Shown: piece by piece, positions 1 through 17,774 of the stretch
How the letters are laid out: every line of letters begins with the position of its first letter
Numbering within the stretch: the stretch's first letter is position 1
Source: a virus
Virus record (IMG/VR): IMGVR_UViG_3300012928_000061
Coordinates: 1-20,414 of that record
DNA length: 20,414 nt
Reading direction: 5' to 3' (one strand)
The notes under the pieces: generated by a model
What the model was told of the DNA's origin: nothing
Database searches by the model: none
What the model saw: the letters and a program-made list of their open reading frames with translations, nothing else
Translations under genes and position numbers: made by a program

Positions 1-3000
1 AATTATCTGAATTAAATGACAGAACATTAAGACAGTTAGAAGAGAGAAGAAGCCAATTCATAGATCCGTTACAAGAATCTACAATAAAAAAACTAGAGCA
101 AGGAATTGATGCCCCTTTATTTCAGAGAAAAGCATTATTTACTACTGAAGGACAAACTCAAGAGCTCCCACTCAAAACAGCTCTTGCTGAAATGAATGAA
201 ACTGGAGATACGTTCAAAATTGACAATGATGCAATAAATAAAGCCTTGATAGAAAGTGTTGCTGGAAAATTTGGAGTGGAAGTAGGAGTTGGCTTTAATC
301 CGTCAAAACTTCAAAAAGATTTGTTTTTAGGCATGCGAGACATAGATGTGAGGGGAGGAAGAATTAGTGCATCCGATATAAGAAATATAACCGCTCAATC
401 ATTTTCAAGCATTGATGATCCAGATGAAAAATTAAGATCATATCTTTTTGGCGTAGACAAGGGGTTAATTCAAGCCACAGATCAAGAAGTTCAGCAAGCA
501 GAAGCTGCTCTTACGGCAATGAAAGAAGATCAAAAAAATATAAAAGCTATAAAAGGGCAAAGACAAAGACAATTGATAGGGGCAAAAGGGGTTGCAGAGT
601 TTGAATCCAAGTCAATGGATGGCTTAAGAACATTAAACGAACTCATATCTCAGTCTGGAGGTATTCGAGGAGTAATTGCAGCAGAAGAAGAAAAAATATT
701 TACGGAGACAACAACTGCTCTTAGATTTACTCAAACATTTAATGAAGTTTTAAAAGCCCAAATAAAAACTAGGCTTAAAAGCTTAAGAAACGATGAGACA
801 ATTGCAGCAAATGCGGATAGTGCATTAATTATTGGAGCAGAAAGAACAAGAGAACAAAGAATAGGAGCAGAAAGAAGACTTGCTTTTATGGATACAGATT
901 TGGGACAAACGCAAAATCAAGACATGCTTTCTAAAGAAATAACTAGTCAAGAAACTTCTGCGAGATTAGCAGAGGAAAGATTAAATTATTTAGCATCAAA
1001 TCAAAGCGAAGAAATACGTTTAAGAGAAGCAATGCTAAAAGAAGACAGAAGTGCTCTTGCGACTAAAATTAGAACTAATCAAATATTGATTGATAATGAA
1101 AACTTTGAAAAAGAAAACGAATTATCTGGATTAGGAAATTTTGTAGAAAGGTCTCAAAGTGCAATAATGGACTTAAGAGAAAGAGGTCAAAATCTAGGCA
1201 GGTTTTCGTTGGGCGATGCGGGATTTAATATAGCAAACGATATAACTGCCTTAGCCGAGGATTCTAGCCTAGCAACAGGTCGAGCGAGCATACTAGGGAG
1301 AACAGGGAACGATCAAGTTGCATCAAAAGCAATTAGCGAAGCTATACAGAAACAAAACGAATTAGCTAAAGAGTATGGAACTTTTTCTCCAGTAGTAGAT
1401 ACGTTAAGAGAAAAAATAGCTCAGTCAAGTGTTAACGTAGCAACATTTTCAGAAAGACTTACGGCAATAACTTTTGACAATGTGAGAACAGGACTAGTTG
1501 ATTTAATAAAAGACTTAGGCGATGCATCAAAAACATCTGGCGATGCATGGAAAAACTTTGCAAGAGGATTAGCTACTACTATTGGAGATGCACTTATACA
1601 AAGAAATGTAGATGTAATTATGCAGTCATTGGCTCCAATATTTGGAGCTGATTTAAGAGGGGTAGAAGAAAGAAATCTAGCGATAAATCAAGCAATTAGT
1701 TCTGATCTTCGTACTGGGCTTGGAGCTCAAGGAGCAATTGCGATGGGCATTTCCACACTTAATTCAAGATTTACGGAACTAACTCAAGCGATGAATGCTT
1801 CTTCAGGAGCTGGATTTTATTCTGGAGGGCCAGTTTCGGGAAAAGCAGGAAGAGATGTAATACCAGCCATGCTAACAAATGGAGAGTATGTTATAAATGC
1901 AAGGTCATCAAAAAAGATTGGAAGAGAGGCATTAGATCAAATAAACGAAAATGCGGAAATACCTGATGAAGTCTTATCAAGATCAACAATTAACAGAACT
2001 CTTTCTATAGAAAAATATGATCCTTTTGATGACGATAATTTACAAAAATATGATCCTGGAGGAAAAGTAGACTCCTCTGACAAACCTTGGGTAGAAAGTT
2101 ACCTGCAAAGACAAGGAGCAAAAGGCAAAGCATTTCTTAACCAAGGATTGCCCACAATGATTGGAACCTACACAGGCTCACAATTATATAGAAAAAACTC
2201 TAACAAACAACCAAAGGTTGAAAGAGAAGAAGAATTTAACCAAGCTAAATTAAAAAGCTTAAACACTAAATCAGTAATAGACTCAAAAAATCTTACAGGT
2301 AGAGCAATTGCTGAAGACAAAACTCAAAGAGAATATGGAGGGTTTTTACTAAGACAGGCAGACAGAAGAGTACAAAAACAAAATCAAGAGTACATGGAGG
2401 GAGTCCAGCAAGCAAATTCAATCAAAATGGCTGTAGCTTCTTTCGTTGCCGCTGAAGTAGTTAGTGCTGCAGTAGATTATGTTGGAACAAAAGTGACTAA
2501 AGCATTAAGAGAAAACCAAACAGCAAATGCATTTGAAGCATATCAAAAGAAGGGCGGAGAATTAGAAAAAGAAGGATATGTAAAGAAAATTAGAAGTGGA
2601 AGAATCGAAAATCCAGCTACAGGAACAGTTACCGATGCAGCACTTATACAAAGATCTACCTTTGCAGGAAAAGAAATCGACAGACTTCAAGAGTCCATAG
2701 CCAAAAGAAATTACATGGGCATGGATCCCAAAAACATAATAATAGATAAAGATGCATATAGGGCTGCCAGAAAGATGGGTGGAGATGCCTTTAGTGTTCC
2801 TTACTCTACTCCTTTTGGGAATGGAGAAACATGGGTTCATAGAGGAAGCAGGCTTAGCAGGGCAAATCAAAAACAATTTAGTTTCCTCAATGATTATAAA
2901 AATCCTTCTAGTTTTACATTTAATTCAATGGGAGAATTAATGGTAGAAAAAGGTTATTATAAAGGAGGCACAGTACAAAAGAAAATTTTGTCTAAGGAAT

Positions 3001-3695
3001 CTGAAAAAAGCAAATTAATACAAAAAACTATAGAAAATATAGAAAAACAAAATATATCAAATATAACAAATAATTCTATAGTAGAAGGGATGCTTTCGTC
3101 TATAAAAGGATTCAAGTATCAGTACAAAAACAAAGGCGGTTCAGTAGCTGCGATGTTAACTGACGGAGAGTATGTATTCAATAAAGATTCCTCAGGAAAA
3201 ATAGGCAATAGATTATTAGAAGCTATCAATAAATATAACGGGGGAGGCTTTGTTTCTGGGCAAAGAGGAATAGATAAGGTCGGCCCCTTTATGCTAGAAG
3301 ATGGATCTTTTGTGATCAATGCCAAATCTACCCAAAAAATGGAAGAAGACCATCCTGGCATTATGTCAATGCTGAGTTCAAAACCTAATATAGCAAAAGC
3401 AATGCTTTCAGGATTTAATCAGGGCGGAAGAGTAGGAGGGCAAGGTTCTGCAACGATAAATGAATCCGAAAGAAGTCAGGATAAAATTGCAAATCAAACA
3501 AACCAAAGCAGAGAAAACACAAACAATATAAACATATCAATAAACATTGATAAGTCAGGATCAACTTCTGAATCGACTAATATATCTGCAGAGGAAGAAT
3601 ACAGGGAAAATCAGGAAATGTCTAGCAGGATAAAGGATGCCGTTCTTAATGTAATCAGACAAGAAAAAAGAATAGGCGGCGAGCTGTATACTTAA
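1..3695 (+). CDS. H: tail tape measure protein (lambda H-like), 5'-truncated by window edge
   Basis: Sets tail length, fills the tail tube and is normally ejected ahead of the DNA. The frame is open from base 3 with no stop, so the gene begins upstream; the first internal ATG (192) is not a credible start. At least 1230 codons are visible. Numbered from that ATG, roughly residues 1-480 are Glu/Lys/Gln/Ala-rich and helical, then a typical tape-measure segment follows (GDAWKNFARGLATTIGDAL, near base 1540). One hydrophobic stretch (bases about 2425-2500) could be membrane-active. The C-terminal half carries repeated GGxV motifs and three copies of a Gly/Asp 'AMLTxGEYV(I/F)' motif seen in many tape measure proteins. 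It ends one base before the next gene. No lysozyme or peptidase domain was recognised. The family call is firm; the exact N-terminus is unknown. Confidence 0.9.
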   Translation, partial: LSELNDRTLRQLEERRSQFIDPLQESTIKKLEQGIDAPLFQRKALFTTEGQTQELPLKTALAEMNETGDTFKIDNDAINKALIESVAGKFGVEVGVGFNPSKLQKDLFLGMRDIDVRGGRISASDIRNITAQSFSSIDDPDEKLRSYLFGVDKGLIQATDQEVQQAEAALTAMKEDQKNIKAIKGQRQRQLIGAKGVAEFESKSMDGLRTLNELISQSGGIRGVIAAEEEKIFTETTTALRFTQTFNEVLKAQIKTRLKSLRNDETIAANADSALIIGAERTREQRIGAERRLAFMDTDLGQTQNQDMLSKEITSQETSARLAEERLNYLASNQSEEIRLREAMLKEDRSALATKIRTNQILIDNENFEKENELSGLGNFVERSQSAIMDLRERGQNLGRFSLGDAGFNIANDITALAEDSSLATGRASILGRTGNDQVASKAISEAIQKQNELAKEYGTFSPVVDTLREKIAQSSVNVATFSERLTAITFDNVRTGLVDLIKDLGDASKTSGDAWKNFARGLATTIGDALIQRNVDVIMQSLAPIFGADLRGVEERNLAINQAISSDLRTGLGAQGAIAMGISTLNSRFTELTQAMNASSGAGFYSGGPVSGKAGRDVIPAMLTNGEYVINARSSKKIGREALDQINENAEIPDEVLSRSTINRTLSIEKYDPFDDDNLQKYDPGGKVDSSDKPWVESYLQRQGAKGKAFLNQGLPTMIGTYTGSQLYRKNSNKQPKVEREEEFNQAKLKSLNTKSVIDSKNLTGRAIAEDKTQREYGGFLLRQADRRVQKQNQEYMEGVQQANSIKMAVASFVAAEVVSAAVDYVGTKVTKALRENQTANAFEAYQKKGGELEKEGYVKKIRSGRIENPATGTVTDAALIQRSTFAGKEIDRLQESIAKRNYMGMDPKNIIIDKDAYRAARKMGGDAFSVPYSTPFGNGETWVHRGSRLSRANQKQFSFLNDYKNPSSFTFNSMGELMVEKGYYKGGTVQKKILSKESEKSKLIQKTIENIEKQNISNITNNSIVEGMLSSIKGFKYQYKNKGGSVAAMLTDGEYVFNKDSSGKIGNRLLEAINKYNGGGFVSGQRGIDKVGPFMLEDGSFVINAKSTQKMEEDHPGIMSMLSSKPNIAKAMLSGFNQGGRVGGQGSATINESERSQDKIANQTNQSRENTNNINISINIDKSGSTSESTNISAEEEYRENQEMSSRIKDAVLNVIRQEKRIGGELYT
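1822..3345 (+). repeat. three diverged copies of a GGxV...GEYVI motif in the tape measure protein
   Basis: Copies lie at about 1822-1947 (GGPVSG...IPAMLTNGEYVINARSSKKIG), 3130-3225 (GGSVAAMLTDGEYVFNKDSSGKIG) and 3240-3345 (GGGFVSG...GPFMLEDGSFVINAKSTQKM). Each continues into a helix starting near 'KIG' or 'QKM'. Shorter lone GG(K/T/R)V motifs lie near 2056, 2963 and 3420. These are protein-level repeats, not DNA repeats. Single copies are common near tape measure C-termini; three in one protein suggests local duplication. Confidence 0.7.
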
Positions 3696-3696
3696 A

Positions 3697-4560
3697 ATGA
3701 AAGAAGGTTATGTAAGTTACGAACAAGCTTTTTTTATAGATGGACTTCAGGTTTCTGGAGTACAATCAATACAAGGAGGTTACTTTATTACTGAGGCTCC
3801 AGTCAATGTACTAGGTTTTGGTAATGTAGGAGAGAGCTTTTTTGAAGCATCACCTAATCAAGGGCAAGCTGCACCACCAAGTAATATGGCGGCATTGGTT
3901 TCTCCAATAGAAGGAAGGTTTGAAATAGAGTCTACATTAGCATCAAGCGATCTTTATCTAAATTATACTGGCGGCCAACCATTTTCTGGAGGAGTAGTTT
4001 ATTCAGATAAGTCATTTGGTTTTAATAGCGGATATATATCGCAACACCAAGTAAGCTGTCAAGTAGGACAACTTCCCTCTACTTCTACTTCAATACTTTC
4101 ATTCGGTGATGTAGGTAGCGGAATAAATCCTAAAGAAGCAAGCTTTCCTCATGCAAACCCTGGTCCAGTTGCTTTTACAAATCAAGAAAACATAAGGGTA
4201 ACATGCAGGGGCTCTTCAACAAATAGAGTAGTTGCTGCATCATATAGGCTATCTACTCAACTAGACCCAATATATGTACTAGGTAATACATTTGCTCATC
4301 AAGTTGATGTAGTTTGGCCAATGATAGGAGAAATGGCATTTAGTATAGAGACTGACGACTATGAATATAAAGCAATGCGAGACTATTTTGTAAAGCCAGA
4401 ATTAAGTGACGTTTCTATGGAAATTTTTGATTGTGATCAGAATCTAATACAAAAATATGAAATAATAAGCGGAAGGCTTGTAACTGAATCAATATCTACA
4501 AGTGTTAATAATCTTATTTCTGTAGATTTATCATATAAAACTTTTTATAATAAAAGATAA
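3697..4560 (+). CDS. tail structural protein, paralogue of the next gene
   Basis: A 287-residue protein, predicted mostly beta, with no signal peptide or membrane segment. I do not recognise a named family. It lies between the tape measure and gpM-like genes, where only tail-tip or tube-associated proteins are expected. It shares a layout with the next gene: an N-terminal 'YE(Q/D)' strand segment, then (S/N)PI(E/A)G at residue 69, then a (G/A)Y(I/L)...SC...P...FG block with Cys121. The matching elements in the neighbour are at residues 143 and 204. The start is an ATG one base after the tape measure stop, with no clear Shine-Dalgarno sequence, so it probably depends on coupling. A structural role near the tail end (distal-tail or tube-like) is inference from position and beta content. 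Confidence 0.65.
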   Translation: MKEGYVSYEQAFFIDGLQVSGVQSIQGGYFITEAPVNVLGFGNVGESFFEASPNQGQAAPPSNMAALVSPIEGRFEIESTLASSDLYLNYTGGQPFSGGVVYSDKSFGFNSGYISQHQVSCQVGQLPSTSTSILSFGDVGSGINPKEASFPHANPGPVAFTNQENIRVTCRGSSTNRVVAASYRLSTQLDPIYVLGNTFAHQVDVVWPMIGEMAFSIETDDYEYKAMRDYFVKPELSDVSMEIFDCDQNLIQKYEIISGRLVTESISTSVNNLISVDLSYKTFYNKR

Positions 4561-5696
4561 TGTCAGAGTATATAAGATATGAGGATGTTCCTGTTGTAAT
4601 AGGTTCTTTAAATAAAGAGCCTAGCTTTGTATTTTCAAATCAAGCTTCATTGTCAATCCAACAGTCTTTGCCTGTAAAAAGATATATTGATGACCATGTA
4701 ATATCTTTTACTAATACTGGAGACATTAGCTTTCTGGCAGACGAAGTTAAAACTTTAACATTAGGCAGTCAAGGTGGGCCAGCTATACCGCTTGCTGACT
4801 CTATAGAAATAGTACCTAGTGGGACATTAATAACATATCCAACTGGAAACAAATTATATTTTGAAGAAGATACTCTTCCTGGAACTTATTTTATAAAAGT
4901 AAGAGCCGAAAATGATTGCGTAATAAGTGAATCTATAGATTGCGAAAATGGAGAAATAGAAGTTCAAAGGAATTATAGCACAGATAACCCTATAGCTGGA
5001 GACCTTATAATTAACTTTTACTTAGATTCAGGAAATTTAAAATCATTCTTTGATTTAACTGGAATTTTTTCTGAAGATGATTACCCTAGAGTAAATGAAA
5101 ATAAAGTAACTGGATTTTTTGGGAATTATTTTTTCGAAGATGCATATCTTGAGTCTTTAAATTTTTCCTGTAGAGCCTTTTATCCATTTACAGCCACTGC
5201 AAGACTTAAGACTTTTGGAACATTAAGATATGATGCATCTAACATAGATAACTTTTTTAATAATCCAGAATATAATGCTCAGAAAAACTTGCCTCACGGA
5301 GCAAGGACAAATATAGTTGGCAAAGAAGATGCAGGGATGACAACAAATCTTTCTTTTGATTATACAATTAATTCTAACAGATCTTATGAATTTAATCTTG
5401 AGACTGGAGGAGCAAATGGGGAAGGCGGAGAACTCCCAGTAAGATCAACCAAAGAAGAAACAGTAAAAGCCTTAAGGATAGAGGGAGAAAATATAAACCC
5501 TTACTTAACTTTATCAGGAAAAAGAGCAAATTTAAAAATAGAACTAGAGGATATAGGGTTTACAGATTTTGAACACGACTCAAAAGGAAAGCTTAATTCG
5601 TTTGAGGTTTATGGTCCAATAGTTTCTCAAGATATATCTGCTGGAGATGGGTCTTATTTAAGAGGCACTGTAACTGTACAGGATACTTATAGATAA
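4560..5696 (+). CDS. tail structural protein, paralogue of the preceding gene
   Basis: A 378-residue beta-rich protein whose ATG overlaps the previous stop (TAATG), implying coupled translation. It shares with the 287-residue neighbour an N-terminal YED-type segment, NPIAG at residue 143 and the AYLESLNFSCRAFYP block with Cys204. It is longer because of an extra segment around residues 60-135 with Ig-like strand texture (GTYFIKVRAENDCVISESIDC) and a different C-terminal third. No catalytic motif is visible. With its sister gene it forms a tandem pair that lambda lacks between H and M. The pair could form stacked rings at the tube/tip junction or a heteromeric collar; this is inference. The family is unrecognised. 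Confidence 0.65.
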   Translation: MSEYIRYEDVPVVIGSLNKEPSFVFSNQASLSIQQSLPVKRYIDDHVISFTNTGDISFLADEVKTLTLGSQGGPAIPLADSIEIVPSGTLITYPTGNKLYFEEDTLPGTYFIKVRAENDCVISESIDCENGEIEVQRNYSTDNPIAGDLIINFYLDSGNLKSFFDLTGIFSEDDYPRVNENKVTGFFGNYFFEDAYLESLNFSCRAFYPFTATARLKTFGTLRYDASNIDNFFNNPEYNAQKNLPHGARTNIVGKEDAGMTTNLSFDYTINSNRSYEFNLETGGANGEGGELPVRSTKEETVKALRIEGENINPYLTLSGKRANLKIELEDIGFTDFEHDSKGKLNSFEVYGPIVSQDISAGDGSYLRGTVTVQDTYR

Positions 5697-8600
5697 TGGA
5701 TATTAATGCAAAAGACTGGGAAGCAGAAGCTACATATAAAAAACATGATGTAGTAAAATTTAATATACCATTAGATCATGCTGGAAACAATAAAGATATT
5801 ACAAGAATCCAAGGAACACGTGGAGATGTAGCTAGTGTAATTAGAATCCATAAATTAGGTGATTTAAGAATTTCAGCATATGTTAAGAAAAGCAATAAAG
5901 ACTCCAAATTAACAAATCATACAAAATTAAAAACGGTTACAGATAGTGATGGAATTATTGATATAGCAAGCTCTAATGGATTAGGAATAGGATTGAGATT
6001 TAAAGATTGGACTAATACCACTTTAGCCCCAAAAGATCCATTAAAAACTTTTAGAGCGATTACTTCTTCAGAAATAGTGGACGAAGAAACCCTGTTTATA
6101 GAAAAGTATATATTAAAAGAAGATATCCCAGAAGGGACAGAAGGAGGGTATCTCCAGCTTTATACATTTTGTTCCTCAATGGTAAGAGCGGGAGATAGCG
6201 TATCTTTTACAAATGTAAAAGTTGACTACGGAAGTCCTTATTTTTATTGCACAAATGACCATACCTCAAGAATTGCAAATTACCCCTTGAGCGATGAAAA
6301 CGATGCTGCTTGGACTCAAAAATTTTTGTGGAGACCATCGTATGGAACATCTTTTGACTTTGAAGGTCTTAATCATAGCATAGAAAAAGACGAAGGAGAA
6401 GACTATCAAATATCATCTTCAATAAATTCTTTAAGAAGAAGAGTAAATATAAATTTCAATAACAGGGATGATAGAGAAGCAAAAGCTATTGTACATTTTT
6501 TACAAGAAAAACATTTTGAATATGAAAGTATATATTCATTAAACGAAAAAGGAGAAAGGCCAGAATCATTAAGGATAAAAGAATTTGATTTTCCAATATC
6601 CCTGCCTTACAGATTAGATTCAAAGTTTATATGCAACTCATTTAATCATCAATTAAAATTCAGAAATAATCATAATATATCTGCAGTTTTTGAAAGCCCA
6701 TATGATAGCGAGCTAGAAAAAGTATGCTCTTTTAATGGGTACAATCCAAAGACAGACCTGATTCTTTTTGTTAAGCTAACTGGCGGAGGGCCTCCGTATA
6801 CATTAAACATAGCAAAGGATACCAGTACAACACCAAATTTTTGGGATGCAAATGATGAGGCTGGAGGAGGCATTACAAATCCAGAGAACTGCCAAACATT
6901 TGAACCTAAAAACACTTGGCCAAAACATTTAGATGGAGTAACAATAACTCCTTCAGACATAGGAGGTGGATCTGGAGAAGTATTTTTACATAACTATCAA
7001 AAAGTTAGAATAACAAGTAATATATCAAAAGAAAGTACGAATGTCACAATTGAAGCCGTAGATGCAGACACAAGCATACAAATAAATGACGAAGCATATT
7101 TTCCTATAGTCATACCTTGTCCTGGGAACCCTGGAGTACATAGTATTTTTATAGATAAACCTGAAGAGATAATGTGGTATCCTTACTTGGCTGTAAGGAA
7201 TTGTGAGTTCAAGCCATCTTATGTTCAAGATATAGAGCAATCGCCAAGAAATACTAACAGTGGGATTGTTGACCATTATCAAAAGCTTGATAAAGATGGG
7301 CCGAACCAAAATCTGTTTAGACTGCAAGTATCTTTTGATTACAGAACAGAAAAAGAAGCAAAAATAATATTACTTTTTCTGGAGCAACATTTAGGATATA
7401 AAAAGTTTAGATTTCAGCTGCCAAGGCCTTACTTGAAAAACAAAAGGCCAGAAACAACATTAACTCAAAATGAATCATCTATATTTTATTGTCCATCTTG
7501 GAGTCATCAAATAGTTTACAAGGATTGCCATAGAATCAGGGCTAACTTTATAGAATCTCCATCCGCAATAACAAATGAACCTTTTGATGATTTAATAAAA
7601 TTTGGAAGAGTCGGAAGCATAGAAAAACCATGCTTTAAAACCATTTATAATCCATCTGTGGTAAAATATGAAATATGTCCACCCTCTTCTAATTTTACTG
7701 CAAGTTTAGGGCCTGAATTTGATAATATTAATGGCAATCAAAAATCGACAATTAGACAGAGTGATTTAATGATATGCATTGATAGATCGGGAAGTATGTC
7801 TGGAGCAAAAGCTGGAGTAGCGCAGACAGTAGGCAGGCAATTAGTTGCATCTTGGAGGCAAGACGATCAATCTCCATTTCAATATGTTACCGCTGTAAAT
7901 CAACCAGTTGCCCACACTAATGATTTTCCAGAAAGTTTTGGATTAAGTGCGGCGGAACCTAACTTAGAACAACAAATTGCACGAGGATTTGATCCTACAA
8001 ACTTGGACAAGTTTGCAATAAAAATCGATCAAAAACGAGTTAACCTTGGAATCGTTTATTTTAATAGCGGCTCCTCTTTAGCTTCAGGATTAAATGGTAG
8101 GCCCCAAGCATATAATAAAACAGGTTTAATAAATAGCATAGTAGCTCAAGCAGGAGGAGGCACTGCATTTGATGGAGCTATGAGAACATGCATAAATGAA
8201 TTTAATAGAAGTGATAGGGCTTTTACCGTAAACAGTAGAATAATAATTTTTATATCTGATGGACAACCTTTTGACGGAAACAATGGAAGGGATCGAAGGA
8301 GAGATGCAGAAGATGTTGCTACTTTTGGAAGAAGATTACATACTTCATATTCCAGCGGCGGAGGTAATCCTAGAGATGATTATGTGGCTAAAGTAGCGGG
8401 GATTTTTCAAGCCGAAATAGATGCAGGATCAACTGTTGAACAAGCAGAAGCATCGTTAATCAGGCAGGGATATGACCCTAATTCAAGAACTGCCATAGGA
8501 TCATGGGCAGATGATCCACTACCAGTTGTAACATTTACTGTAGCAGTTCCTGGGGCAAACACTGGACTAATGAGCAATATGGCTAGTAGGTACGGCCCTC

Positions 8601-9979
8601 CAGGAGCAGAGCAGCCATTATTTTTTAATGCGTCCAATGTAGCAGATTTAGTTCAAATGATTAGAATAATAATGGATCTTACAGAGGATACTGGTTCTCA
8701 AAATTTTGTATCATTTACAGTCAAAAATTGTGGACCAAAACCAGCAAGAATAATAGAAACAAAAGTTAGATTTGCTGATGATACTGATGCTCCACTCTTT
8801 ACGGTGACCAGAGCTCCTGGGGTTTTTGATTACGATGCAAATGGAAGGACTCAAGGATTGAATACGGGGACATCAAGCATTAGCCCAGAGGCTAATACTG
8901 GCGGACAGTATATTAATGATGTAAATAATCCTAATTTTCCAGGCAATATGACAGGTAATGTAAAATGGAAAAGCGGCAATGTACCAGATCCTGGAAATCC
9001 TGGAAGATTTTTACAATTATTCAGGGGTGGAACAAGACTTGATGTTAATAATTCAGGAGGAGACCCTTTGATTTCAACCAATTGGAACGGAAGTCAAGGA
9101 GCGGCAAATATAGGAGTTTTCTGCAAAGATGATGGAACTAGGCCTGCTGGAGGAAAATACATAAGATTGTTCAGGGCAACAAACCCAGCGGTACAAACAG
9201 AAATAACAGATTTAAATATAGGAACTGTTGATGCAAATAATCCAGTTGGTAACTACGATCATCTCCCAGAGCTTCAACCTGGTGAAGAGCTGGATTTATT
9301 TTTTACTATAAAAACAAATAATTTATATGATGCATTGAGGCAGGTACAATTTGTTTTTGTAACAAGAGATGGATCATGCAAGCAAACAGAATGCTATGCA
9401 AATATTGATATTAATATGTATACAGTATCAAACAAAAATGTAGAGATAGATGGAGTAGACGGAGTAGATCCTCCTCCAGAGCAAGCACCTGCTCCTGATG
9501 CTCCAGACCCAGTGGCACCTGGTCCTCCAGCTCCACCTGATGCTACTTTTACAACCAGAATGTTTAGAAATGGCCCTGCTGGTCGGGTAGATGATGTTAC
9601 TGATTTTGAATTTGAAGGAGGAAATTGCAGAGGAACGAGGCATGGATTTTGGCGGATACAAGATGCTCCGCAATGGTTAGAAGATGCAGTATCCGTAGAT
9701 TTTGCTGGAAATTACACATATAATCCAAACCTAAGCATATCATTTGTTCCAGATGTTGGCATGCCATTTACATTTCCTGGCCTCTTTGGAAATCTAGATG
9801 ATGCAGTGCCAAGTTTTGCTGGCAATTGGATAAGGATGGGGAGAATAATGGACCAACAAGCAAATGATATTTATATAAAAGAACGACTGCAAAATAACAT
9901 TGGAAATTTTACAGTTGAAATATCAGATGGCACTAATATGCTAATTAGCCCTCAATACAGGACTGTAGACTGCTCATGA
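5696..9979 (+). CDS. giant tail-tip mosaic: two gpM-like domains fused to a vWA adhesin domain
   Basis: 1427 residues; the TAATG start overlaps the previous stop. Domains in order: residues 6-206, a CBM5/12-like module (W8...YxxxDVV ... YFYCTNDHTS ... AAW206) split by a jelly-roll-like insert (about 28-180); about 208-336, first lambda gpM-like domain (EAKAIVHFLQEKHFEYESIY, Cys313, AVFESP); about 340-488, Ig-like spacer with GGGPPYTLNI; about 490-622, second gpM-like domain (EAKIILLFLEQHLGYKKFRF, YCPSW, ANFIESP); about 692-995, vWA with MIDAS D696-x-S698-x-S700, T823 and D855; about 1003-1249, ASH-like beta region; about 1258-1281, proline-rich linker; about 1283-1427, unrecognised C-terminal domain. 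In lambda, gpM is about 110 residues and sits between H and L, and this gene holds the same place. Inference: the gpM parts anchor the protein in the tip and the rest is displayed for adhesion. Confidence 0.8.
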   Translation: MDINAKDWEAEATYKKHDVVKFNIPLDHAGNNKDITRIQGTRGDVASVIRIHKLGDLRISAYVKKSNKDSKLTNHTKLKTVTDSDGIIDIASSNGLGIGLRFKDWTNTTLAPKDPLKTFRAITSSEIVDEETLFIEKYILKEDIPEGTEGGYLQLYTFCSSMVRAGDSVSFTNVKVDYGSPYFYCTNDHTSRIANYPLSDENDAAWTQKFLWRPSYGTSFDFEGLNHSIEKDEGEDYQISSSINSLRRRVNINFNNRDDREAKAIVHFLQEKHFEYESIYSLNEKGERPESLRIKEFDFPISLPYRLDSKFICNSFNHQLKFRNNHNISAVFESPYDSELEKVCSFNGYNPKTDLILFVKLTGGGPPYTLNIAKDTSTTPNFWDANDEAGGGITNPENCQTFEPKNTWPKHLDGVTITPSDIGGGSGEVFLHNYQKVRITSNISKESTNVTIEAVDADTSIQINDEAYFPIVIPCPGNPGVHSIFIDKPEEIMWYPYLAVRNCEFKPSYVQDIEQSPRNTNSGIVDHYQKLDKDGPNQNLFRLQVSFDYRTEKEAKIILLFLEQHLGYKKFRFQLPRPYLKNKRPETTLTQNESSIFYCPSWSHQIVYKDCHRIRANFIESPSAITNEPFDDLIKFGRVGSIEKPCFKTIYNPSVVKYEICPPSSNFTASLGPEFDNINGNQKSTIRQSDLMICIDRSGSMSGAKAGVAQTVGRQLVASWRQDDQSPFQYVTAVNQPVAHTNDFPESFGLSAAEPNLEQQIARGFDPTNLDKFAIKIDQKRVNLGIVYFNSGSSLASGLNGRPQAYNKTGLINSIVAQAGGGTAFDGAMRTCINEFNRSDRAFTVNSRIIIFISDGQPFDGNNGRDRRRDAEDVATFGRRLHTSYSSGGGNPRDDYVAKVAGIFQAEIDAGSTVEQAEASLIRQGYDPNSRTAIGSWADDPLPVVTFTVAVPGANTGLMSNMASRYGPPGAEQPLFFNASNVADLVQMIRIIMDLTEDTGSQNFVSFTVKNCGPKPARIIETKVRFADDTDAPLFTVTRAPGVFDYDANGRTQGLNTGTSSISPEANTGGQYINDVNNPNFPGNMTGNVKWKSGNVPDPGNPGRFLQLFRGGTRLDVNNSGGDPLISTNWNGSQGAANIGVFCKDDGTRPAGGKYIRLFRATNPAVQTEITDLNIGTVDANNPVGNYDHLPELQPGEELDLFFTIKTNNLYDALRQVQFVFVTRDGSCKQTECYANIDINMYTVSNKNVEIDGVDGVDPPPEQAPAPDAPDPVAPGPPAPPDATFTTRMFRNGPAGRVDDVTDFEFEGGNCRGTRHGFWRIQDAPQWLEDAVSVDFAGNYTYNPNLSISFVPDVGMPFTFPGLFGNLDDAVPSFAGNWIRMGRIMDQQANDIYIKERLQNNIGNFTVEISDGTNMLISPQYRTVDCS
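7763..8690 (+). other. vWA domain with complete MIDAS inside the gpM-like tail protein
   Basis: The frame encodes SDLMICIDRSGSMSGAK, the classic vWA first strand with DxSxS. It is followed by GGGTAFDGAMRT, supplying the MIDAS Thr, and IIIFISDGQPFD, supplying the MIDAS Asp. A late VVTFTVAVPG strand and the NASNVADLVQMIRIIM helix complete the Rossmann-like core. Two long loops are present: about 60 residues after helix 1 and about 70 residues after the MIDAS Asp strand. All metal-ligand positions are kept, so divalent-cation-dependent ligand binding is plausible. The ligand is unknown. Confidence 0.88.
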
Positions 9980-11616
9980 GTTTTATAACAACAGAGTCTG
10001 GAGTATGCCTATCAGAAACAGGCGCTTGCGATGGTGCATTTGAAGAAAAATGCGAAGAAAATTATTATGTAAAATCAGGAAAGCATATAACTTTTGTAAA
10101 TGTATGCAATCAACCAGTAGAAATTACGGGATTATTTAATTCTGACCCAGATCGTTTCACATTAATGAATACTGGATTAAGTGGAGTATCAATATACGAC
10201 TCTACACATCCGTTAGCTAATCTACCGCAAACAATCCAGCCTTACGAAACATATAGAATAAATACTTTTTTTCATCCAAAAGGAGAAGATTTTGAAACTG
10301 CAAATTTTGGAACATTAGCATCTCCAACAGGCGATCAATTTGGTGCAATAATAGATGTAAGACCAGGAGATATAAACTTTCCAAATTGTGAAAACTTTTT
10401 TACTTTATCTGGAGAATTTCTATGCAGAGAATGTAATGTTGATCTAAAGACTGGACTAGGAGAGTTTTTTCAAACTCTTAGTTCTGCTGATATGCCAGCT
10501 CCTGACCCGCCTCCACTTCCTTCAAGTTCAGAAAATGTATATTTTATACAAGGAACTCTAACTAATTTTGCTTGGGGACCAACACAACTATTACAACAAA
10601 TGGCATTACATGGATCAGGGAACAAGCAAACAAGCGAAAATTATAGAACGCATTGGGCAGCTATCGCCCAACATATAGTAGACAGAAGAGCTACTGCTAA
10701 CACATATTTTGATGGAACAACAGCAGATAATGTAGCTGAAGAATTTCAGGCAATGGCAATCAATGAAGCAACTCCTATACAACCAAATTTTGGAGCAGAC
10801 AATGCTGGAGATTTTGAAGGAGCAATTGGTATTGCAAAAGCTGCAAATCAAATTTCATGGAACAACAACTGGGCAGGAGCAACATACAAAACAATGACTA
10901 GAGAAGGAAGTCCATTAGCATGGAATATGATATCAGAAACTATGAATCTTTTAGTTTCTGGTAATGTTAATGGTGCAGCAATTGAATTATATGGTACTAT
11001 TTTTGAAGATAATGGAGAGGGGTTTGCTAATATCGATTTAGCTGCAAATCCTTTTGACCTAGACAATCTGGTCGATTTAGGAGTATCTGAAGTTAATGGA
11101 GTTGGACCGTTTTCAAATCTTGAAATAAATATGCAAGGATCTGGCGATATAAGCATAAACTATGGAGGAAATGCTTCATTGAATATAACAGCATCAGCTG
11201 GAACAAACAGAAGAGTTTTGTCTATGGGATTCAGAGATGGAAATGATCAACTTTATACCAGAAGCCAGAATCCATCTATTGCAAATCCAAGAGGCTGTGC
11301 AACTGCTGGGAGTACTGGGTTATCATGGACATTTCAAACTAACCCCATAATGTTTTGGAATGATATAGGAAATAATGCGGAAACACCATATTACGTTACA
11401 GACATTGTCCCTTGGAGCAGGGGGAACTACGATGTATTTTTAAATAACACTTTAATATATAATGCTGGTGTAGCTCAAGCACCACCAGCTAATTGGGCAT
11501 TAAATGGATTTTCAAACGATATATTAGGAGGAGAGGGGCAAATATCACTAGACTTAAACTATTCGGGTCCCGTAGATAGTCCTCAATTTAAAATTAATTT
11601 TGTAAGGGCAGGATAA
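9976..11616 (+). CDS. surface-type protein with ASH-like domain and proline-rich linker
   Basis: 546 residues; the ATGA start overlaps the vWA gene's stop. Residues about 1-35 are Cys-rich (GVCLSETGACDG, EEKCEE). Residues about 36-150 resemble an ASH/choice-of-anchor-D beta-sandwich: HITFVNVCNQPVEITGLF, later TIQPYETYRINTFFHP. Residues about 174-185 are proline-rich (MPAPDPPPLPSSS). The remainder (about 190-546) begins with an Ala/Gln-rich helical stretch and ends in glycine/asparagine-rich beta strands; I recognise no family there. No signal peptide is seen, so it is not a secreted host-type adhesin. Sitting between the vWA fusion and gpL, and echoing the former's ASH-linker-domain layout, it probably joins the same tip assembly. 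That link is inference from position and architecture. Confidence 0.65.
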   Translation: MSFITTESGVCLSETGACDGAFEEKCEENYYVKSGKHITFVNVCNQPVEITGLFNSDPDRFTLMNTGLSGVSIYDSTHPLANLPQTIQPYETYRINTFFHPKGEDFETANFGTLASPTGDQFGAIIDVRPGDINFPNCENFFTLSGEFLCRECNVDLKTGLGEFFQTLSSADMPAPDPPPLPSSSENVYFIQGTLTNFAWGPTQLLQQMALHGSGNKQTSENYRTHWAAIAQHIVDRRATANTYFDGTTADNVAEEFQAMAINEATPIQPNFGADNAGDFEGAIGIAKAANQISWNNNWAGATYKTMTREGSPLAWNMISETMNLLVSGNVNGAAIELYGTIFEDNGEGFANIDLAANPFDLDNLVDLGVSEVNGVGPFSNLEINMQGSGDISINYGGNASLNITASAGTNRRVLSMGFRDGNDQLYTRSQNPSIANPRGCATAGSTGLSWTFQTNPIMFWNDIGNNAETPYYVTDIVPWSRGNYDVFLNNTLIYNAGVAQAPPANWALNGFSNDILGGEGQISLDLNYSGPVDSPQFKINFVRAG

Positions 11617-12563
11617 TGAAACCAGAATTAGCTACAGAAATACACAATGCTGATCCTAATATAATCATAGAGTTATATCAGATCAATTTAAAAGGAAAAG
11701 GTGAATATTATTTTCATGCTGGAGAAAATGGCATAAGAAAAAAAATAGTTTTTAATGGTAAAGAATATGATCCAATTGCTATGAAAGTAAATGGATTTGA
11801 ATATAAGGGTGACGGAAGGCTACCCAGACCTACAATGTTAATTGCTAATAGCATGGGAGAAATGTCATTAAAAAATATGTTCTTTGAAGATTTCATTAGT
11901 CATAAAGTAACAAGAATAAAAACATTCATTAAATATTTAGACGATATAAATTTTCCTGGAAATAATAATCCTTATGGAGAAGCAGATATACAAAATGCTT
12001 TTTCAAAAGATGAGTATTATGTAAATCAAAAAATAAGAGAAGATAAATATTCTTGCGAATATGAATTGGTTTCTATTTTAGAATTACAGGACATGAAGTT
12101 GCCTGGGCGTAGAATTATGGCAAATCATTGCTCATGGATATACAGAAGCACAAATGGTTGCGGATACAATAACTCCGCAGTTGCTGATATCAGAAATAAA
12201 AAAATAAGAAATGGTGGGTACAATGATAACTTAATTGGCCCAGAAACATACATAGGAAACACGGCTATTTCTGCTTCTTCTTTATGGGATCCAGATGGAA
12301 ATTATAATGTCGGAGATGTCGTAGAAGTAAAACCATACGGTTATAATGAAAGCACAAAACCAAGCATGTTTTTTGTATGCTTAAAAGATAACACTAACTC
12401 AGACCCTAAATTTGATCATGAAAGATGGGCTCAAGATGAATGCTCAAAAGACTTGCAAGGCTGTAGGCTAAGATTTGGAGCAGGTGCCCCTTCTGATCAA
12501 GAAACTACTGACGGGCTACCGTTTGGTGCATTTCCTGGGGTCGCTCAATTCAGGCCAGTATGA
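11616..12563 (+). CDS. L: minor tail protein L (tail tip, four paired Cys) with inserted CBM-like module
   Basis: gpL is a tail-tip component; the lambda protein is reported to bind an Fe-S cluster through conserved Cys. This 315-residue version keeps the family's signature pairs: HCSWIYRSTNGCGY (Cys172, Cys182) and CSKDLQGCRLRFG (Cys276, Cys283), followed by LPFGAFPG. The N-terminal half has the expected strands, including the ELVSILELQDMKLPGRRI segment. Lambda gpL has 232 residues; the extra length lies mostly between the two Cys pairs. There, W224-DPDGNYNVGDVVEV...FFVCLKDN...W271 looks like a CBM5/12-type aromatic module. The TAATG start overlaps the previous gene. A weak AGGA lies just upstream. 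Lambda-like order (M, L, K, I, J) supports the call. Confidence 0.9.
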   Translation: MKPELATEIHNADPNIIIELYQINLKGKGEYYFHAGENGIRKKIVFNGKEYDPIAMKVNGFEYKGDGRLPRPTMLIANSMGEMSLKNMFFEDFISHKVTRIKTFIKYLDDINFPGNNNPYGEADIQNAFSKDEYYVNQKIREDKYSCEYELVSILELQDMKLPGRRIMANHCSWIYRSTNGCGYNNSAVADIRNKKIRNGGYNDNLIGPETYIGNTAISASSLWDPDGNYNVGDVVEVKPYGYNESTKPSMFFVCLKDNTNSDPKFDHERWAQDECSKDLQGCRLRFGAGAPSDQETTDGLPFGAFPGVAQFRPV

Positions 12564-13279
12564 AAATAAGAGAAAAAATAAAAACCATCTGCCTTGAAAA
12601 TAAAGAAGAAGAATCTTGCGGAATTATATCTATGGATGATACAGGAAATTTTTTTATAAAACAACTAGAAAATGTACATGTTGAAAAAAACAAATATTTT
12701 AAAATCTCTTTAAGTGAATGGATAAAAGAAAAAAACAAAAATAAAATTTTAGCTGTATTTCATAGCCACACCAATACTCCAGAAAATCCATCTTCTTTTG
12801 ATATAGATTATTCGGAAGAGTTATGCATTCCATTTATTGTTTACAGTATATATACCGACAAATTCTTTTTACATTTTCCAGAATCTTATGAGCCTGAAAA
12901 ACTAGCTGGGCGATTCTATATAGAAGATATACATGAATGCACTTGCTTAATTAAGGATTATTTTGATAAAAAGTTAGATTTAAAAATATCTAAATGGCTT
13001 AAAAATTACTGTATCCCAAAAGATGCAATCGAGGCAAATGAATTATTTAAAAAAGTTTTCCAAAAAAATATGCAAGAAGTCAATAAAATAAATGAAATAA
13101 AAAAACATGATGTTTTAATTTTTAAATTTTCAGACAATAAAAAAATGCATGGCGGAATATATTTAGGAGATGAAATTTTCTTGCATCAAAAAACAAATCA
13201 AATTAGTTCTAGGACTTTTTTGGACCAAAGATGGAAAAGCAAAATATATAAAATATTTAGGCATAAAGCTTTAGTGTAA
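12560..13279 (+). CDS. K: tail tip peptidase/hydrolase K: JAB (JAMM) + NlpC/P60
   Basis: 239 residues; the ATGA start overlaps gpL. Residues 1-100 form a JAB/MPN metallopeptidase: Glu18 (ESCG), then H68-S-H70-x7-S78-x2-D81, an exact JAMM zinc motif. Residues about 110-239 form an NlpC/P60 cysteine hydrolase: Cys127 in ECTCLIKDYF, His197 in MHGGIYLGDE, and the family's ISSRTF segment. The usual Asp before the catalytic Cys is Glu, and a second Cys lies two residues on. Length and two-domain layout match lambda gpK. The NlpC/P60 half is expected to cleave peptidoglycan peptide bonds during entry. The JAB half may process a tail protein, possibly gpI. gpI follows 8 bases downstream. Both active sites look intact. 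Confidence 0.93.
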   Translation: MKIREKIKTICLENKEEESCGIISMDDTGNFFIKQLENVHVEKNKYFKISLSEWIKEKNKNKILAVFHSHTNTPENPSSFDIDYSEELCIPFIVYSIYTDKFFLHFPESYEPEKLAGRFYIEDIHECTCLIKDYFDKKLDLKISKWLKNYCIPKDAIEANELFKKVFQKNMQEVNKINEIKKHDVLIFKFSDNKKMHGGIYLGDEIFLHQKTNQISSRTFLDQRWKSKIYKIFRHKALV

Positions 13280-13287
13280 ATATAGAA

Positions 13288-14139
13288 GTGAAAAAAGTTG
13301 TTTTACATGGGAAGATAGCAAAAAATTTTGGAAAGAGCTTTAATTTAGAAGTTTCTTCTCCAAAAGAATGTATTGCTGCAATCGATTCTCAAGTAGAAGG
13401 ATTCAGAGAATATTTAATAAGGTCTGCCATGAACGGAGTTGTTTATGGACTAAGAGACAAAAACGGCAACTTTTTCGAGCCCAATTTATATGATATAAAA
13501 ACGGCAGAAGATGAGCTACATTTTGCTGCAATTCCACAAGGCGGAGGTTTTTTTGGAGCACTATTAACTGCAGTTGCGACAACATATATTGGATTATGGC
13601 TTCAAGACTTATTTGAAGTACCAGAACCCCAACCTGGACAACAAATATTTTCGGAAAGTTATATTTATAGAGGCCCAAGGTCGCAAACTATTCAGGGAGG
13701 AGCAGTTCCCGTAGGATATGGCAGACTAAGAATTGGACCGACAAATATTTCAGACATTGTATCGAATTATGACTACGATGTTGATCGTGGCGAAATAATG
13801 GGTTTTGGTGTTAACACGGCAGGAGCTATAAGTGCAGCAGAATATTTTATAGGATCCTCTCTTTATTCTTATACTGCAGCAAAAGATGATGGTGCGGCAG
13901 CCGTTCAAGGTGGATATGTATACTCTCCAAATCAAGGAATAAATCCGTTCTCAGCCCAAGGAGATGCTGGACAATCTGGAGGCAATCAATTGGGATGGGA
14001 CGGAGATCAAGCAAATAAACAAGGAGACATGGATCCTGATAACCCTAACTACGATCCCGCAGACAGTAACAGTAATAATTCTACAGGCGATCCTACTGTT
14101 CAAGACAGCTACAAAATAGGTATGGAGTACAACTTATAG
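13288..14139 (+). CDS. I: tail assembly protein I (ubiquitin-like domain), possibly frameshifted at 3' end
   Basis: gpI takes part in tip assembly. The GTG start at 13288 is chosen because the family begins immediately with this strand (VVLHGKIAKNFGKSFNLEV); no Shine-Dalgarno sequence is evident and K ends 8 bases before. Residues 1-84 match the Lambda_tail_I beta-grasp fold and run into a Gly triplet (85-87). A hydrophobic stretch (about 88-106) and a conserved QGGAVPVGYGRLRIGP follow, as in lambda gpI. Residues about 215-275 are low-complexity Asp/Asn/Gly/Pro. Lambda gpI has 223 residues, so this form is longer. The final residues (about SYKIGMEYNL) may be out of frame: adding one base in the AAAA run at 14113-14116 would join this gene to the J frame. 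Confidence 0.85.
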   Translation: MKKVVLHGKIAKNFGKSFNLEVSSPKECIAAIDSQVEGFREYLIRSAMNGVVYGLRDKNGNFFEPNLYDIKTAEDELHFAAIPQGGGFFGALLTAVATTYIGLWLQDLFEVPEPQPGQQIFSESYIYRGPRSQTIQGGAVPVGYGRLRIGPTNISDIVSNYDYDVDRGEIMGFGVNTAGAISAAEYFIGSSLYSYTAAKDDGAAAVQGGYVYSPNQGINPFSAQGDAGQSGGNQLGWDGDQANKQGDMDPDNPNYDPADSNSNNSTGDPTVQDSYKIGMEYNL

Positions 14140-14231
14140 CGGCAGTAGCAGATTCTTGTGTCACGCAAACATTTCCACTAAATTTAGATGGATCAGTAAA
14201 TACATTAAATCCAGCTGTACCTGTAGCGGTA
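14140..14231 (+). other. I-J gap, open in the J frame; probable frameshift site or base error nearby
   Basis: At 92 bases this is the only real gap in the operon. In the J frame it is open back to a stop at 14076-14078. From about 14115 it reads like protein (YGVQLIAAVADSC, TFPLNLDGSVNTLNPAVPVA). That stretch holds no ATG, GTG or TTG, and the ATG at 14232 lacks a Shine-Dalgarno sequence. The other frames here look non-coding. One extra base in the A run at 14113-14116 would give a continuous I-J frame. Confidence 0.55.
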
Positions 14232-17200
14232 ATGGTTGATACATCTCAAAAATATCGAGCATCAAATAGAAATGGCGACATCATTATTGTAGGGCCAAGA
14301 TATAGAGGTGCAAATAGGGATTCTGGAATGGGATACACTTCTTTAAATTCAACATCTGTTAGAAAAAAACTTCATTTACTATCAGAAGGCCCAATTGAAG
14401 GATTAGTTGATCAAAATGCAAAAGTTCACGAATATAATTGGACTAATCCGACTAGCGATACAAATTTTGCAAAAGGAATATATGTAAATGATGTGCCAGT
14501 AAAAGATACAGTAACAGACGGCTTCAATGTTGGTAAGATAGATTTTGATCTAACAACTACAGCTGCAAGAGTATCAGTTCCCCCTGTTAATCCCTGCGAC
14601 GATCCAAATAGCAAGTTTATCATTGGAGCAGGCAAACAAAGATTATTAAGAAAAGAATATTTATATTCTGGAATTACATTTGGAAAAAATGCAAGACTTT
14701 ATGGTCCAAGAAGAGTAGATACAAAAAAAAATGAAGAGGAATATTTTGTATCTCATATTGTAACAAATCCAAATGTATCCCATGCAATGATAAGCATAAA
14801 TATATTAGAATTGTATTATGTTTATGAAGGTGATTTTGTTGAAACAAGGATAAAATTAGGAGCCTTGCTTGGTGCCCTTGCTGGAGGCATAGTGGGGGCC
14901 ATGCTTGCAGGAGATGCATTGGGAGATGTGACACTTCAAGCAACCATGGCAGGCCTCGGAGCAGGATTAGGGAAGGCTGCTGTTGCAGCTAAGCCAATCC
15001 CAGGTGGAGGCGCCGCACTGGGTTTTGCACTTGGGGGCGCAGCTGCATTTCCCGCAGGATATGCTGCAGCCGCAACTGGGCTAAATCTGGTTGAAGCGGC
15101 ACTAACTATTCTAGCTGCTTCAGCAGTGGGAGCAATAATAGGAAATAATTTAGAATTATACAGCGGAAGAAAAATAGAAAATTCTGGAGAAACATGGCCT
15201 AATATTTTAGAGTTTAGAATTAAAGTTTCTAATGATGGACAGCATGAATATGAAACAGACATAAAGGTAAATGGGGTGGCTACAGAACCATATGTGAAAG
15301 ATTTTTTAGTACCTCTTCCTGCAAGTAATCCAAATAAATCAAATAGAATAATAAAGGTATATAGAACCACTAGGCAAAAAAATGTTGTAGCTGAAGGAGA
15401 AGCTTCAGCTAGATACAGAGAAGATGCAGAGCTGCATTCTGTTACTGAAATCATTCCAGCAATACAAAATTTTCCAAAAACAGTAGTTGCGGCAACAAGG
15501 TTAAATGCCAAAGATTTTCCTAACCAACAATCAGATATATCATTTGACTTAAAACTTAAAAAAGTAAAAATACCTAGCAACTACAATCCAGAAACTAGAG
15601 TTTATAATGGAGTATGGGATGGATTATTTTTTGGAGAATCTGAGTTTGAAGAAAAAATAGATGAAAAATTTTTAAAATGGACAGATAATCCAGCATGGAT
15701 ATTTTATGATATTGTTACTAATGATACTTTTGGGTTGGGTAAGTTTGGTATAGATGGAACAAAAGTGGATAGATGGAATTTATATAAAATTGCAAAATTT
15801 TGCGACGAAATGGTTCCGACAGGAATACTTCCAAAATATGAAAAAAGGTCTTTTTCTTGTGAAAACCCAGAGTTTCCAAAACGGAAAATTCATATACAAG
15901 GAGGAATTACTGACGATGAATTCAAACAAGAATTTAGAGGCATACCAGCAGCAGAGCTAAATCTTACCCCAAACGGAGATTTTACTAAAGGAAAACAAAT
16001 ATGTCTTTTTTATGATAATGAAAAACATATAGGAGAAAAGTTTACGATAGTAGGAACCGACTTATCATCAAAAACTATAGAGTTAGACAGAGAACCAAAA
16101 GTAGGCAAAGGTTTTTGTGCAATAGAATTTTCTAGAAAACTTCTTGAACCTAGATTTACTTCTAATTTTTACCTTGATAAGGCTCAAGATGCATTTTCTG
16201 TAATAAAAAGAATATCAGAAATATTTAGAGCAACTCCATATTGGGCAGACGGAGCAATATTCTTATCTCAAGAAAGAAAAGATGATCCAGTTATGCTTTT
16301 TAATAATAATAACATTGGGAAAGATGGATTTGTATACTCTAGTTCCCCAAGGTCGCAAAGATATAATCATGCATCAATGACATATGCTGATCAAGAAAAT
16401 TTATTTATGCCGCAAATTGAATATGCAGAAAATAGAGAGGGTATCATAAAGGACGATATAAAAGAAGTATCCCCAGATGGCTTTGGGATAACATCAAAAG
16501 GTCAAGCAAAAAGAAAAGTAAATCATATTATTAAAAAATCAAAGCTAGATAATGAATTAGTTCAATTTGATACAAATGTGATAGGCTCTTATTTAAGGCC
16601 AGGAGATGTAATCAAAATAGGAGATAAAACAAGAAATACATCTAGGATTGCAGGAAAAGTATTAAAAGTTAATGGAACTAACGAAGATAAAAATTTAACT
16701 ATAGATATTGATTATCCTACAAAAATAGATCTAGATCCTGCTGACCCAAAGACTTGGAAAAACATAACTCTTTTCACTCCTAGTTTAAGTCATAATTTTG
16801 ACACATCAAAAAATATAAACTATTGGGACCAATCTCAATTAGATAAATTTAGATCGAGTCAAGTTTCTGATTTTTACATCACTGGTATAACGAATCCTGG
16901 CAATGAAGAAAGAAATCAACTAGGAGTTACATATAACCCATATAAGTATGTAGAAGGAGCTTTTTCTTTTCATGAAGCAATAAATGACGCAATAGATAAA
17001 GGCGGAAGAGTGGCAAGGGTATCAAATTCTTTTGAACAAAGCCTACTTGAGCTATCTATCCCAAGCGGTGAATCTGCATGGATTGGAGGAAGAGCAATCT
17101 CAACTCTTCCAAATTGGATATGGCAAGAAGATAATTCGGCAATCAGTTTTTTAAAGTTTTATAATAACGTTAATCCAACAATTGATTTTTCTGAATTTGA

Positions 17201-17774
17201 ATTATACACAAAGGTAACAGGAGAAGGCGATGTGGGGACAACAAATTATGGATCAATAATATTAAATTCTGGATCAGAGGCTGGAGGGTACATTTTTGAA
17301 AAATATGATACAAAAAGCTCTAACATAACTGACTCTACATCTTATATAATAGATTGCGAATCAAATCTATCTAGAAATGAAAACTACAGAGTAATAAATG
17401 TAAAAGAAAATAATCCAGGAGTATTTGCTGTTAATGCAATAAAGTACAATGAATCAATATATAATAATGTTGAAAAAATTGAAAGCCTAAAAAATAACTC
17501 CGCACCAAATATACAGACTGAAGTCGCATTAGATCCAAATGCGGTTAATTTTACAATAACAGATGCTGGAGGAGGGCAATACAATCTAAGTGTTGTATTT
17601 GATGTGGTCACTGGAACAAATTTTTATAATATAGATATTATCAATGAAGATAATATACAGGTAAGATCGTTTACTCAAAATAATGACGATACTTTATCTT
17701 CAATCACAAAAACAATTAACGGCATCAGTCTTGAACCTGGCGGATATTTTGCTAGAGTATCATCGAATCTGTAA
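14232..17774 (+). CDS. J: central tail hub/fibre J (host specificity) with glycine-zipper and C-type-lectin-like inserts
   Basis: Forms the central tip hub and fibre and contacts the host receptor. At 1180 residues it is close to lambda J (1132). Family landmarks are LLSEGPIEGLVD (about 50), KVKIPSNYNPETRVYNGVWDG (about 444; motif shortened in places), TDNPAWIFYDIVTND (about 484), EPRFTSNFYLDKAQDAF (about 639) and ENYRVINVKENNPGVFAV (about 1050). Three insertions stand out: residues about 207-306, Ala/Gly-rich and hydrophobic; about 541-638, a beta segment before EPRF; about 907-1041, C-type-lectin-like. The C-terminus (about 1097-1180) looks like one FN3-like domain rather than lambda's long fibre, so receptor contact may be shared with the downstream protein. 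The start at 14232 is weak; translation may continue from gpI by a frame change. Confidence 0.9.
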   Translation: MVDTSQKYRASNRNGDIIIVGPRYRGANRDSGMGYTSLNSTSVRKKLHLLSEGPIEGLVDQNAKVHEYNWTNPTSDTNFAKGIYVNDVPVKDTVTDGFNVGKIDFDLTTTAARVSVPPVNPCDDPNSKFIIGAGKQRLLRKEYLYSGITFGKNARLYGPRRVDTKKNEEEYFVSHIVTNPNVSHAMISINILELYYVYEGDFVETRIKLGALLGALAGGIVGAMLAGDALGDVTLQATMAGLGAGLGKAAVAAKPIPGGGAALGFALGGAAAFPAGYAAAATGLNLVEAALTILAASAVGAIIGNNLELYSGRKIENSGETWPNILEFRIKVSNDGQHEYETDIKVNGVATEPYVKDFLVPLPASNPNKSNRIIKVYRTTRQKNVVAEGEASARYREDAELHSVTEIIPAIQNFPKTVVAATRLNAKDFPNQQSDISFDLKLKKVKIPSNYNPETRVYNGVWDGLFFGESEFEEKIDEKFLKWTDNPAWIFYDIVTNDTFGLGKFGIDGTKVDRWNLYKIAKFCDEMVPTGILPKYEKRSFSCENPEFPKRKIHIQGGITDDEFKQEFRGIPAAELNLTPNGDFTKGKQICLFYDNEKHIGEKFTIVGTDLSSKTIELDREPKVGKGFCAIEFSRKLLEPRFTSNFYLDKAQDAFSVIKRISEIFRATPYWADGAIFLSQERKDDPVMLFNNNNIGKDGFVYSSSPRSQRYNHASMTYADQENLFMPQIEYAENREGIIKDDIKEVSPDGFGITSKGQAKRKVNHIIKKSKLDNELVQFDTNVIGSYLRPGDVIKIGDKTRNTSRIAGKVLKVNGTNEDKNLTIDIDYPTKIDLDPADPKTWKNITLFTPSLSHNFDTSKNINYWDQSQLDKFRSSQVSDFYITGITNPGNEERNQLGVTYNPYKYVEGAFSFHEAINDAIDKGGRVARVSNSFEQSLLELSIPSGESAWIGGRAISTLPNWIWQEDNSAISFLKFYNNVNPTIDFSEFELYTKVTGEGDVGTTNYGSIILNSGSEAGGYIFEKYDTKSSNITDSTSYIIDCESNLSRNENYRVINVKENNPGVFAVNAIKYNESIYNNVEKIESLKNNSAPNIQTEVALDPNAVNFTITDAGGGQYNLSVVFDVVTGTNFYNIDIINEDNIQVRSFTQNNDDTLSSITKTINGISLEPGGYFARVSSNL
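14853..15150 (+). other. glycine-zipper hydrophobic insert within J
   Basis: J residues about 207-306 include LGALLGALAGGIVGAMLAG, GGGAALGFALGGAAAFPAG and EAALTILAASAVGAIIG, three membrane-like segments with repeated GxxxG/GxxxA spacing. They lie in a loop between beta strands of the hub. Base composition jumps: 137 of 240 bases are G or C in 14881-15120, against 17 of 60 in 14701-14760 and 18 of 60 in 15181-15240. It causes a long spurious antisense open frame. Confidence 0.8.
16950..17352 (+). other. C-type-lectin-like domain inserted in J
   Basis: J residues about 907-1041 follow the lectin-like pattern: a first strand (YVEGAFS), helix 1 FHEAINDAIDKGGRVARV, helix 2 NSFEQSLLEL, then AWIGGRAI...NWIWQE and a closing strand SYIIDCE. 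The canonical calcium motifs (EPN, WND) are not visible and few Cys are present. It lies between two J-family hub strands (before ENYRVINVKEN), so it is an insertion and not a C-terminal extension. Confidence 0.65.

Follow-up and report, generated by a model that had tools for sequence, protein, structure and literature searches.

The window, a 20,414-base virus record taken at full length and probably a fragment, codes for a tail protein (P0001, positions 5696–9979, plus strand) in which two gpM-type domains and a vWA domain are joined in a single reading frame. We consider this protein, with a probability of roughly 65%, to be a distal tail-ring subunit carrying an exchangeable receptor-binding head. 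The frame runs from an ATG to a stop over 1427 amino acids with zero internal stops, and it contains, as the earlier note had observed, the two gpM-like domains and, after them, a vWA domain in which the five MIDAS residues are all present. Residues 1–204 (5696–6307) form an N-terminal region conserved across the long-form relatives described below; its match to a carbohydrate-binding module 5/12 (E 0.35) is not significant. The first gpM-like domain, M1, covers approximately residues 208–340 (6317–6715) and was delimited by repeat alignment, profile comparison and homologues, and the second, M2, covers approximately residues 495–622 (7178–7561). After a short linker, CPPSS (residues 661–665; 7676–7690), the vWA domain extends from about residue 686 to 1000 (7751–8695). 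It is followed by a beta-rich region (residues 1001–1245; 8696–9430), which is exchanged jointly with the vWA domain in relatives, and by a proline-rich linker and variable C-terminal tail (9431–9979). All of these features, and the neighbouring genes, are on the plus strand.

The gene lies in a tail operon whose order is the same in the relatives where it was checked. The 3' part of the tape measure gene (3–3695), whose 5' end is outside the record, was assigned by position, size and homologues, and gave no significant family match. It is followed by a tail-tube-like gene (3697–4560; Pfam Phage_tube_2, a weak match below the cut-off) and a conserved 378-aa gene with homologues in relatives (4560–5696). 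Downstream of the gene for P0001 are a gene for a 546-aa protein (9976–11616), of which the N-terminal part is conserved and the C-terminal part is exchanged together with the vWA cassette in relatives, and the homologues of gpL (11616–12563; Pfam PF05100, E 2.7e-40), gpK (JAB + NlpC/P60 domain match; 12560–13279), gpI (family match; 13288–14139) and gpJ (Phage-tail_3 family match; 14232–17774). A place between tape measure and L, which is that of gpM, was found in the window and in the related loci L018, L020 and L023. The position between H and L proposed earlier is therefore correct, except that two genes separate P0001 from the tape measure and one (9976–11616) from L. Those two upstream genes (3697–5696) are 36–38% conserved in relatives and have no counterpart at that place in lambda. 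Two other peculiarities of the operon were seen. The gpI and gpJ homologues, separate in the window (13288–17774), are a single fused ORF of 1725–1840 aa with a variable middle stretch in L184–L188. Also, an insert in the L gene (12180–12563) bears a W..Y..GD.V motif similar to the start of P0001 at its N terminus (5696–6307), and neither that insert nor the N-terminal motif gave a significant family match.

The identity of the gpM-type domains was supported by several comparisons. Pfam PF05939 (Phage_min_tail) matched residues 505–577 with an E value of 6.6e-8; the score in the window (33.3 bits) is below the gathering score of 39 bits, which was exceeded in all four of the fused relatives scanned (43.7–58.7 bits). 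The minor tail protein family PHROG 14 matched residues 503–626 (E 2.5e-7). M1 and M2 are 31% identical when aligned together, and an hhalign comparison of the pair with a group of genuine gpM proteins gave a match (probability 96.3, E 1.8e-9); the profile of the tandem-M family retrieved lambda gpM from the PDB (8iyk_M, E 6.2e-4). P0001 is thus homologous to gpM by sequence and profile, as had been proposed, and through this homology the idea of a tip component built into the tail is also sustained. In lambda, six copies of gpM in two conformers form a three-fold distal ring between the tube and the hub (PMC10721106). Lambda gpM, however, is a single 109-aa domain, in contrast to the two domains fused in tandem, and joined to a vWA head, in the window; tandem M proteins lacking the vWA domain are known from contigs of a sister lineage. 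By analogy with lambda, the two fused beta-sandwich domains would be the ring-anchoring body, and three copies would form a pseudo-six-fold gpM ring. A tandem-M chain could supply both gpM conformers, giving three vWA heads per tail, with the vWA domain and the beta-rich region after it projecting from the body and touching the host surface.

The vWA domain was recognized in the window by a significant sequence match, Pfam VWA_2 on residues 780–857 (E 6.8e-7), which exceeds the curated cut-off; the VWA family itself gave an E value of 0.0036. The Pfam vWA match was weak or absent in the other fused relatives scanned. In the window the domain has a long insert, at about residues 708–770, ahead of the second core strand. 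A structure model of residues 205–1250 was of low confidence (mean pLDDT 56.8), and its Foldseek matches included the vWA proteins PilB, MIC2 and CD11b, as well as proteins of the tail tip or baseplate from phages JBD30, Chi and T1. A better model was obtained for the relative L120, in which the metal site is degenerate (pLDDT 78.7); its matches in the PDB were the PitA pilus tip adhesin, integrin beta7 and Toxoplasma MIC2 (probability 1.00), and vWF A1 was matched with a target TM of 0.72. The vWA (Rossmann-like) fold is accordingly assigned from the L120 model together with the low-confidence model of the window, and in the modelled L120 protein it is kept without a canonical metal site. Because the vWA profile, run against the PDB, found weak integrin matches alone (best E 0.043), the fold claim is based on Pfam and Foldseek. 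The closest solved folds, those of the pilus adhesins PitA and PilB and of apicomplexan MIC2, share with the proposed protein an adhesion head on a filament tip; they differ from it in that the vWA profile found no significant sequence kinship in the PDB and in that most phage members lack the canonical MIDAS. Among predicted viral structures, the single match beyond E 0.001 was a VWFA protein of Harvfovirus.

Relatives of the window were reached through the L protein. When P0001, L and J were used singly to scan IMG/VR, zero relatives emerged, and an L profile built from eight phages was too loose; a profile from three phages opened the family, with four related loci containing homologues of the tube-like gene, the 378-aa gene, the M-M-vWA gene, the next gene and L. 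The profile of the M-M-vWA proteins from those loci then retrieved 75 viral contigs, several of which had been found before, and one contig from a bin labelled Flavobacteriaceae, which may be a case of co-binning. The long form, M1-M2 plus vWA, is present in approximately 30 contigs, the longest of 150 kb. In approximately 45 others (L128–L172), M1-M2 occurs alone as a tandem gpM-gpM protein of about 380–450 aa, and nearly all of these genes stop 0–4 residues past the M2 match; no vWA domain was found in the fetched loci of this sister lineage. On a quick M1-M2 tree, the vWA-bearing rows were separated from the rest by a branch (SH-aLRT 89; one change). The window had a long branch next to L126 and L127, and its exact position is unsure. 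In these two basal relatives the vWA domain is on a separate gene directly after the M-M gene (L126, 7855–10635, plus strand; L127, 13009–15804, plus strand), which makes the fusion not obligatory, and in all other vWA-bearing relatives the domain is covalently joined. A tblastn search of 50,697 phage records detected no homologue of P0001, of its vWA part or of the next gene, nor any of the tandem-M protein, so that no candidate double-M distal tail protein was found among the isolate phages searched. When a relative was used as the query, 6% of it was matched, in gpM of Rhizobium phages.

Since every sequence of the family is a metagenomic contig, a chimeric assembly or a chance motif had to be considered as the origin of the fusion. 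Homologues of the same M-M-vWA architecture recur in the approximately 30 contigs, however, and we conclude from this that the fusion is neither a one-off assembly error nor a chance motif. Moreover, the exchanges described next share one seam in three sets of relatives, and in the pairs L099/L109 and L114/L119 the identity is high on the flanks of the block. An artefact is hardly credible in view of this recurrence and shared seam, and was rejected.

Comparison of close relatives showed that the vWA domain is exchanged as a block. The amino acid identity of M1-M2, at 86–100%, fell abruptly to 31–39% in the vWA domain and was high again at L. For L018 or L102 against L109, the values were 100% in M1-M2 and 38–39% in vWA; for L119 against L124, 91% and 31%; and for L114 or L120 against L119, 86% and 38%. 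The reverse was seen for L018 or L102 against L019, with 68% in M1-M2 and 82–83% in vWA. In all three sharp cases, the drop came directly past a conserved CTFSS linker, to which CPPSS corresponds in the window, about 25–30 residues ahead of the first vWA strand. The DNA of L099 and L109 is 94.9% identical as far as the seam, and identity returns to 95.1% from L onwards; high identity likewise flanks the swapped block of L114/L119 on both sides. The sequence comparisons thus show a cassette that is exchanged whole at a single fixed seam, in relatives that are approximately 40% (M1-M2) and 16–30% (vWA) identical to the window and are not its close kin. Recombination at the conserved linker swaps the head plus much of the next gene in these relatives, and the ring body is left unchanged, as are L, K and J for the most part.

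Two smaller differences lie outside this block. In the otherwise 92–95% identical L099 and L109, a region that precedes the tube-like gene and probably belongs to the tape measure (L099, 5100–5956) also differs. L098 (14332–14925) and L113 are 99.6% identical in DNA up to the end of this region, yet their C-terminal tails after the vWA domain differ (approximately residues 1440–1600), which marks a second, smaller exchange point.

Modular exchange between near-identical phages, a mark of receptor-binding proteins, was found in these relatives, and the pattern is that expected of a host-range determinant. The vWA cassette is therefore probably a host-recognition module, and the exchange pattern makes the head the strongest candidate for recognizing the host, by itself or jointly with the downstream protein that is exchanged along with it. 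The earlier note had proposed an adhesin from the motif; since phages that are otherwise near-identical swap the vWA domain at a fixed seam and keep most other tip proteins unchanged, this role is now indirectly supported and on a stronger basis than that of the motif.

Many vWA domains function in protein-protein assembly without metal. The domain might, in the same manner, be a structural or assembly module in contact with the tape measure, tube or hub, exchanged for co-adaptation with its partner, and the co-exchange of the next gene would agree with such a role. The expected partners L, K and most of J, however, are 95–100% identical across the exchange, and the approximately 45 contigs of the sister lineage have no vWA domain at all, for which reasons we find an assembly role unlikely. 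Receptor recognition might instead reside in the co-exchanged downstream protein (the homologues of 9976–11616) or in the middle of J, the vWA domain being merely linked to it. L099 and L109 differ not only in the vWA part but also in the C-terminal part of the next gene and in an additional gene before L, and the same pairs show both differences. In L099/L109, the cleanest pair, L and K are 96–100% identical and I-J is mostly 95–100% identical, the exceptions being one middle stretch at 56–90% and a few residues at the ends that fall outside the shared frame; L186/L187 likewise show strong variation in the middle of I-J. Because both of these regions vary too, the receptor contact could lie in the next gene or in the middle of I-J. 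Exchange of the neighbour alone, however, would not need a seam inside the M1-M2-vWA gene and before the vWA domain, where it was found in all three sharp cases, and we regard a merely linked vWA domain as improbable. If the receptor-binding head is indeed carried by the ring subunit, host recognition would take place on the distal tail ring, at the gpM position, and not on the central fibre J or on side fibres, in a phage group for which the isolate records searched gave no match. This would make the exchangeable head a host-range candidate open to direct testing.

The metal site gives a different picture from that of the exchange. In the window all five MIDAS residues are in place: D696, S698 and S700 of the DRSGS motif (residues 696–700; 7781–7795), T823 (8162–8164) and D855 (8258–8260). 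Nineteen vWA sequences were aligned, with the same picture in an independent second alignment, and while the Asp855 position is invariant (19/19), the fourth MIDAS position, on a loop placed by sequence alignment with no structure behind it, is Thr in the window only, against Glu in eight members, Lys in eight, Arg in one and Ser in one. Glu is found in all eight members having DxTGS and SDG, and Lys or Arg in nine of those with a variable DxSxS and SDF or GDG; the Ser is that of L109, in which the first Asp is also lost. DxSxS is eroded in several aligned members although the vWA domain is retained.

These differences bear on the suggestion that the protein is a metal-dependent adhesin of integrin type, in which the MIDAS metal would bind an acidic group of a host ligand. 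The complete site in the window is in its favour, as is the presence of integrin I domains, which are metal-dependent, among the fold matches of the low-confidence window model; the replacement of Thr823 by Glu, Lys, Arg or Ser in the other 18 members and the broken DxSxS of several speak against it, within the limits of a Thr loop aligned by sequence. The suggestion therefore survives for the window's phage, whose head may bind through a metal ion, and not for the family, in which metal dependence does not appear to be a general mechanism because the site is altered or lost in relatives; as an account of the protein we hold it tentatively, as a minority possibility. A more speculative, and doubtful, view is that the metal site was re-engineered rather than simply lost, with Glu as a built-in ligand and Lys or Arg as a built-in cation replacing the metal, so that a tail tip would pass from metal-dependent to metal-free binding, or back, when heads are exchanged. 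The Thr-to-Glu and Thr-to-Lys changes offer a natural series on vWA adhesion with and without a metal ion.

Hub (J-type) proteins of phages are already known to bear vWA domains; the novelty lies in the carrier, a tandem gpM, in the exchange as a block and in the pattern by which the metal site changes. In a literature search, in which subscription journals were sparsely covered, no gpM-vWA protein was found. The vWA protein of Hardycor1 belongs to a replication/accessory module (PMC7911831). A catalogue of eCIS receptor-binding proteins lists VWA among the domains of tail-derived target-binding proteins (PMC12923769); these belong to contractile injection systems and are likened to the M-M-vWA family by the reported domain only. 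The hub-type (Phage-tail_3, J-type) proteins resemble P0001 in having a vWA domain with GGT and DxSxS in a tail-tip protein, but their carrier is the hub and not gpM. The vWA profiles of the two types matched weakly (probability 62.9), and a shared phage origin is not supported by such a match. A vWA DNA pattern searched in IMG/VR had led to the hub-type proteins of L006, L007, L008 and L012; the vWA proteins of L004, L005, L009, L010 and L011, being devoid of tail-protein features, were set aside. Hub-inserted vWA domains with complete MIDAS motifs were observed in unrelated phages, at 4560–7925 (plus strand) of L006, 129–3458 (minus strand) of L007, 6864–9476 (plus strand) of L012 and 4849–7602 (plus strand) of L189. 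The last of these is Bordetella phage MW2, in which the vWA of the hub protein APL99216 is annotated.
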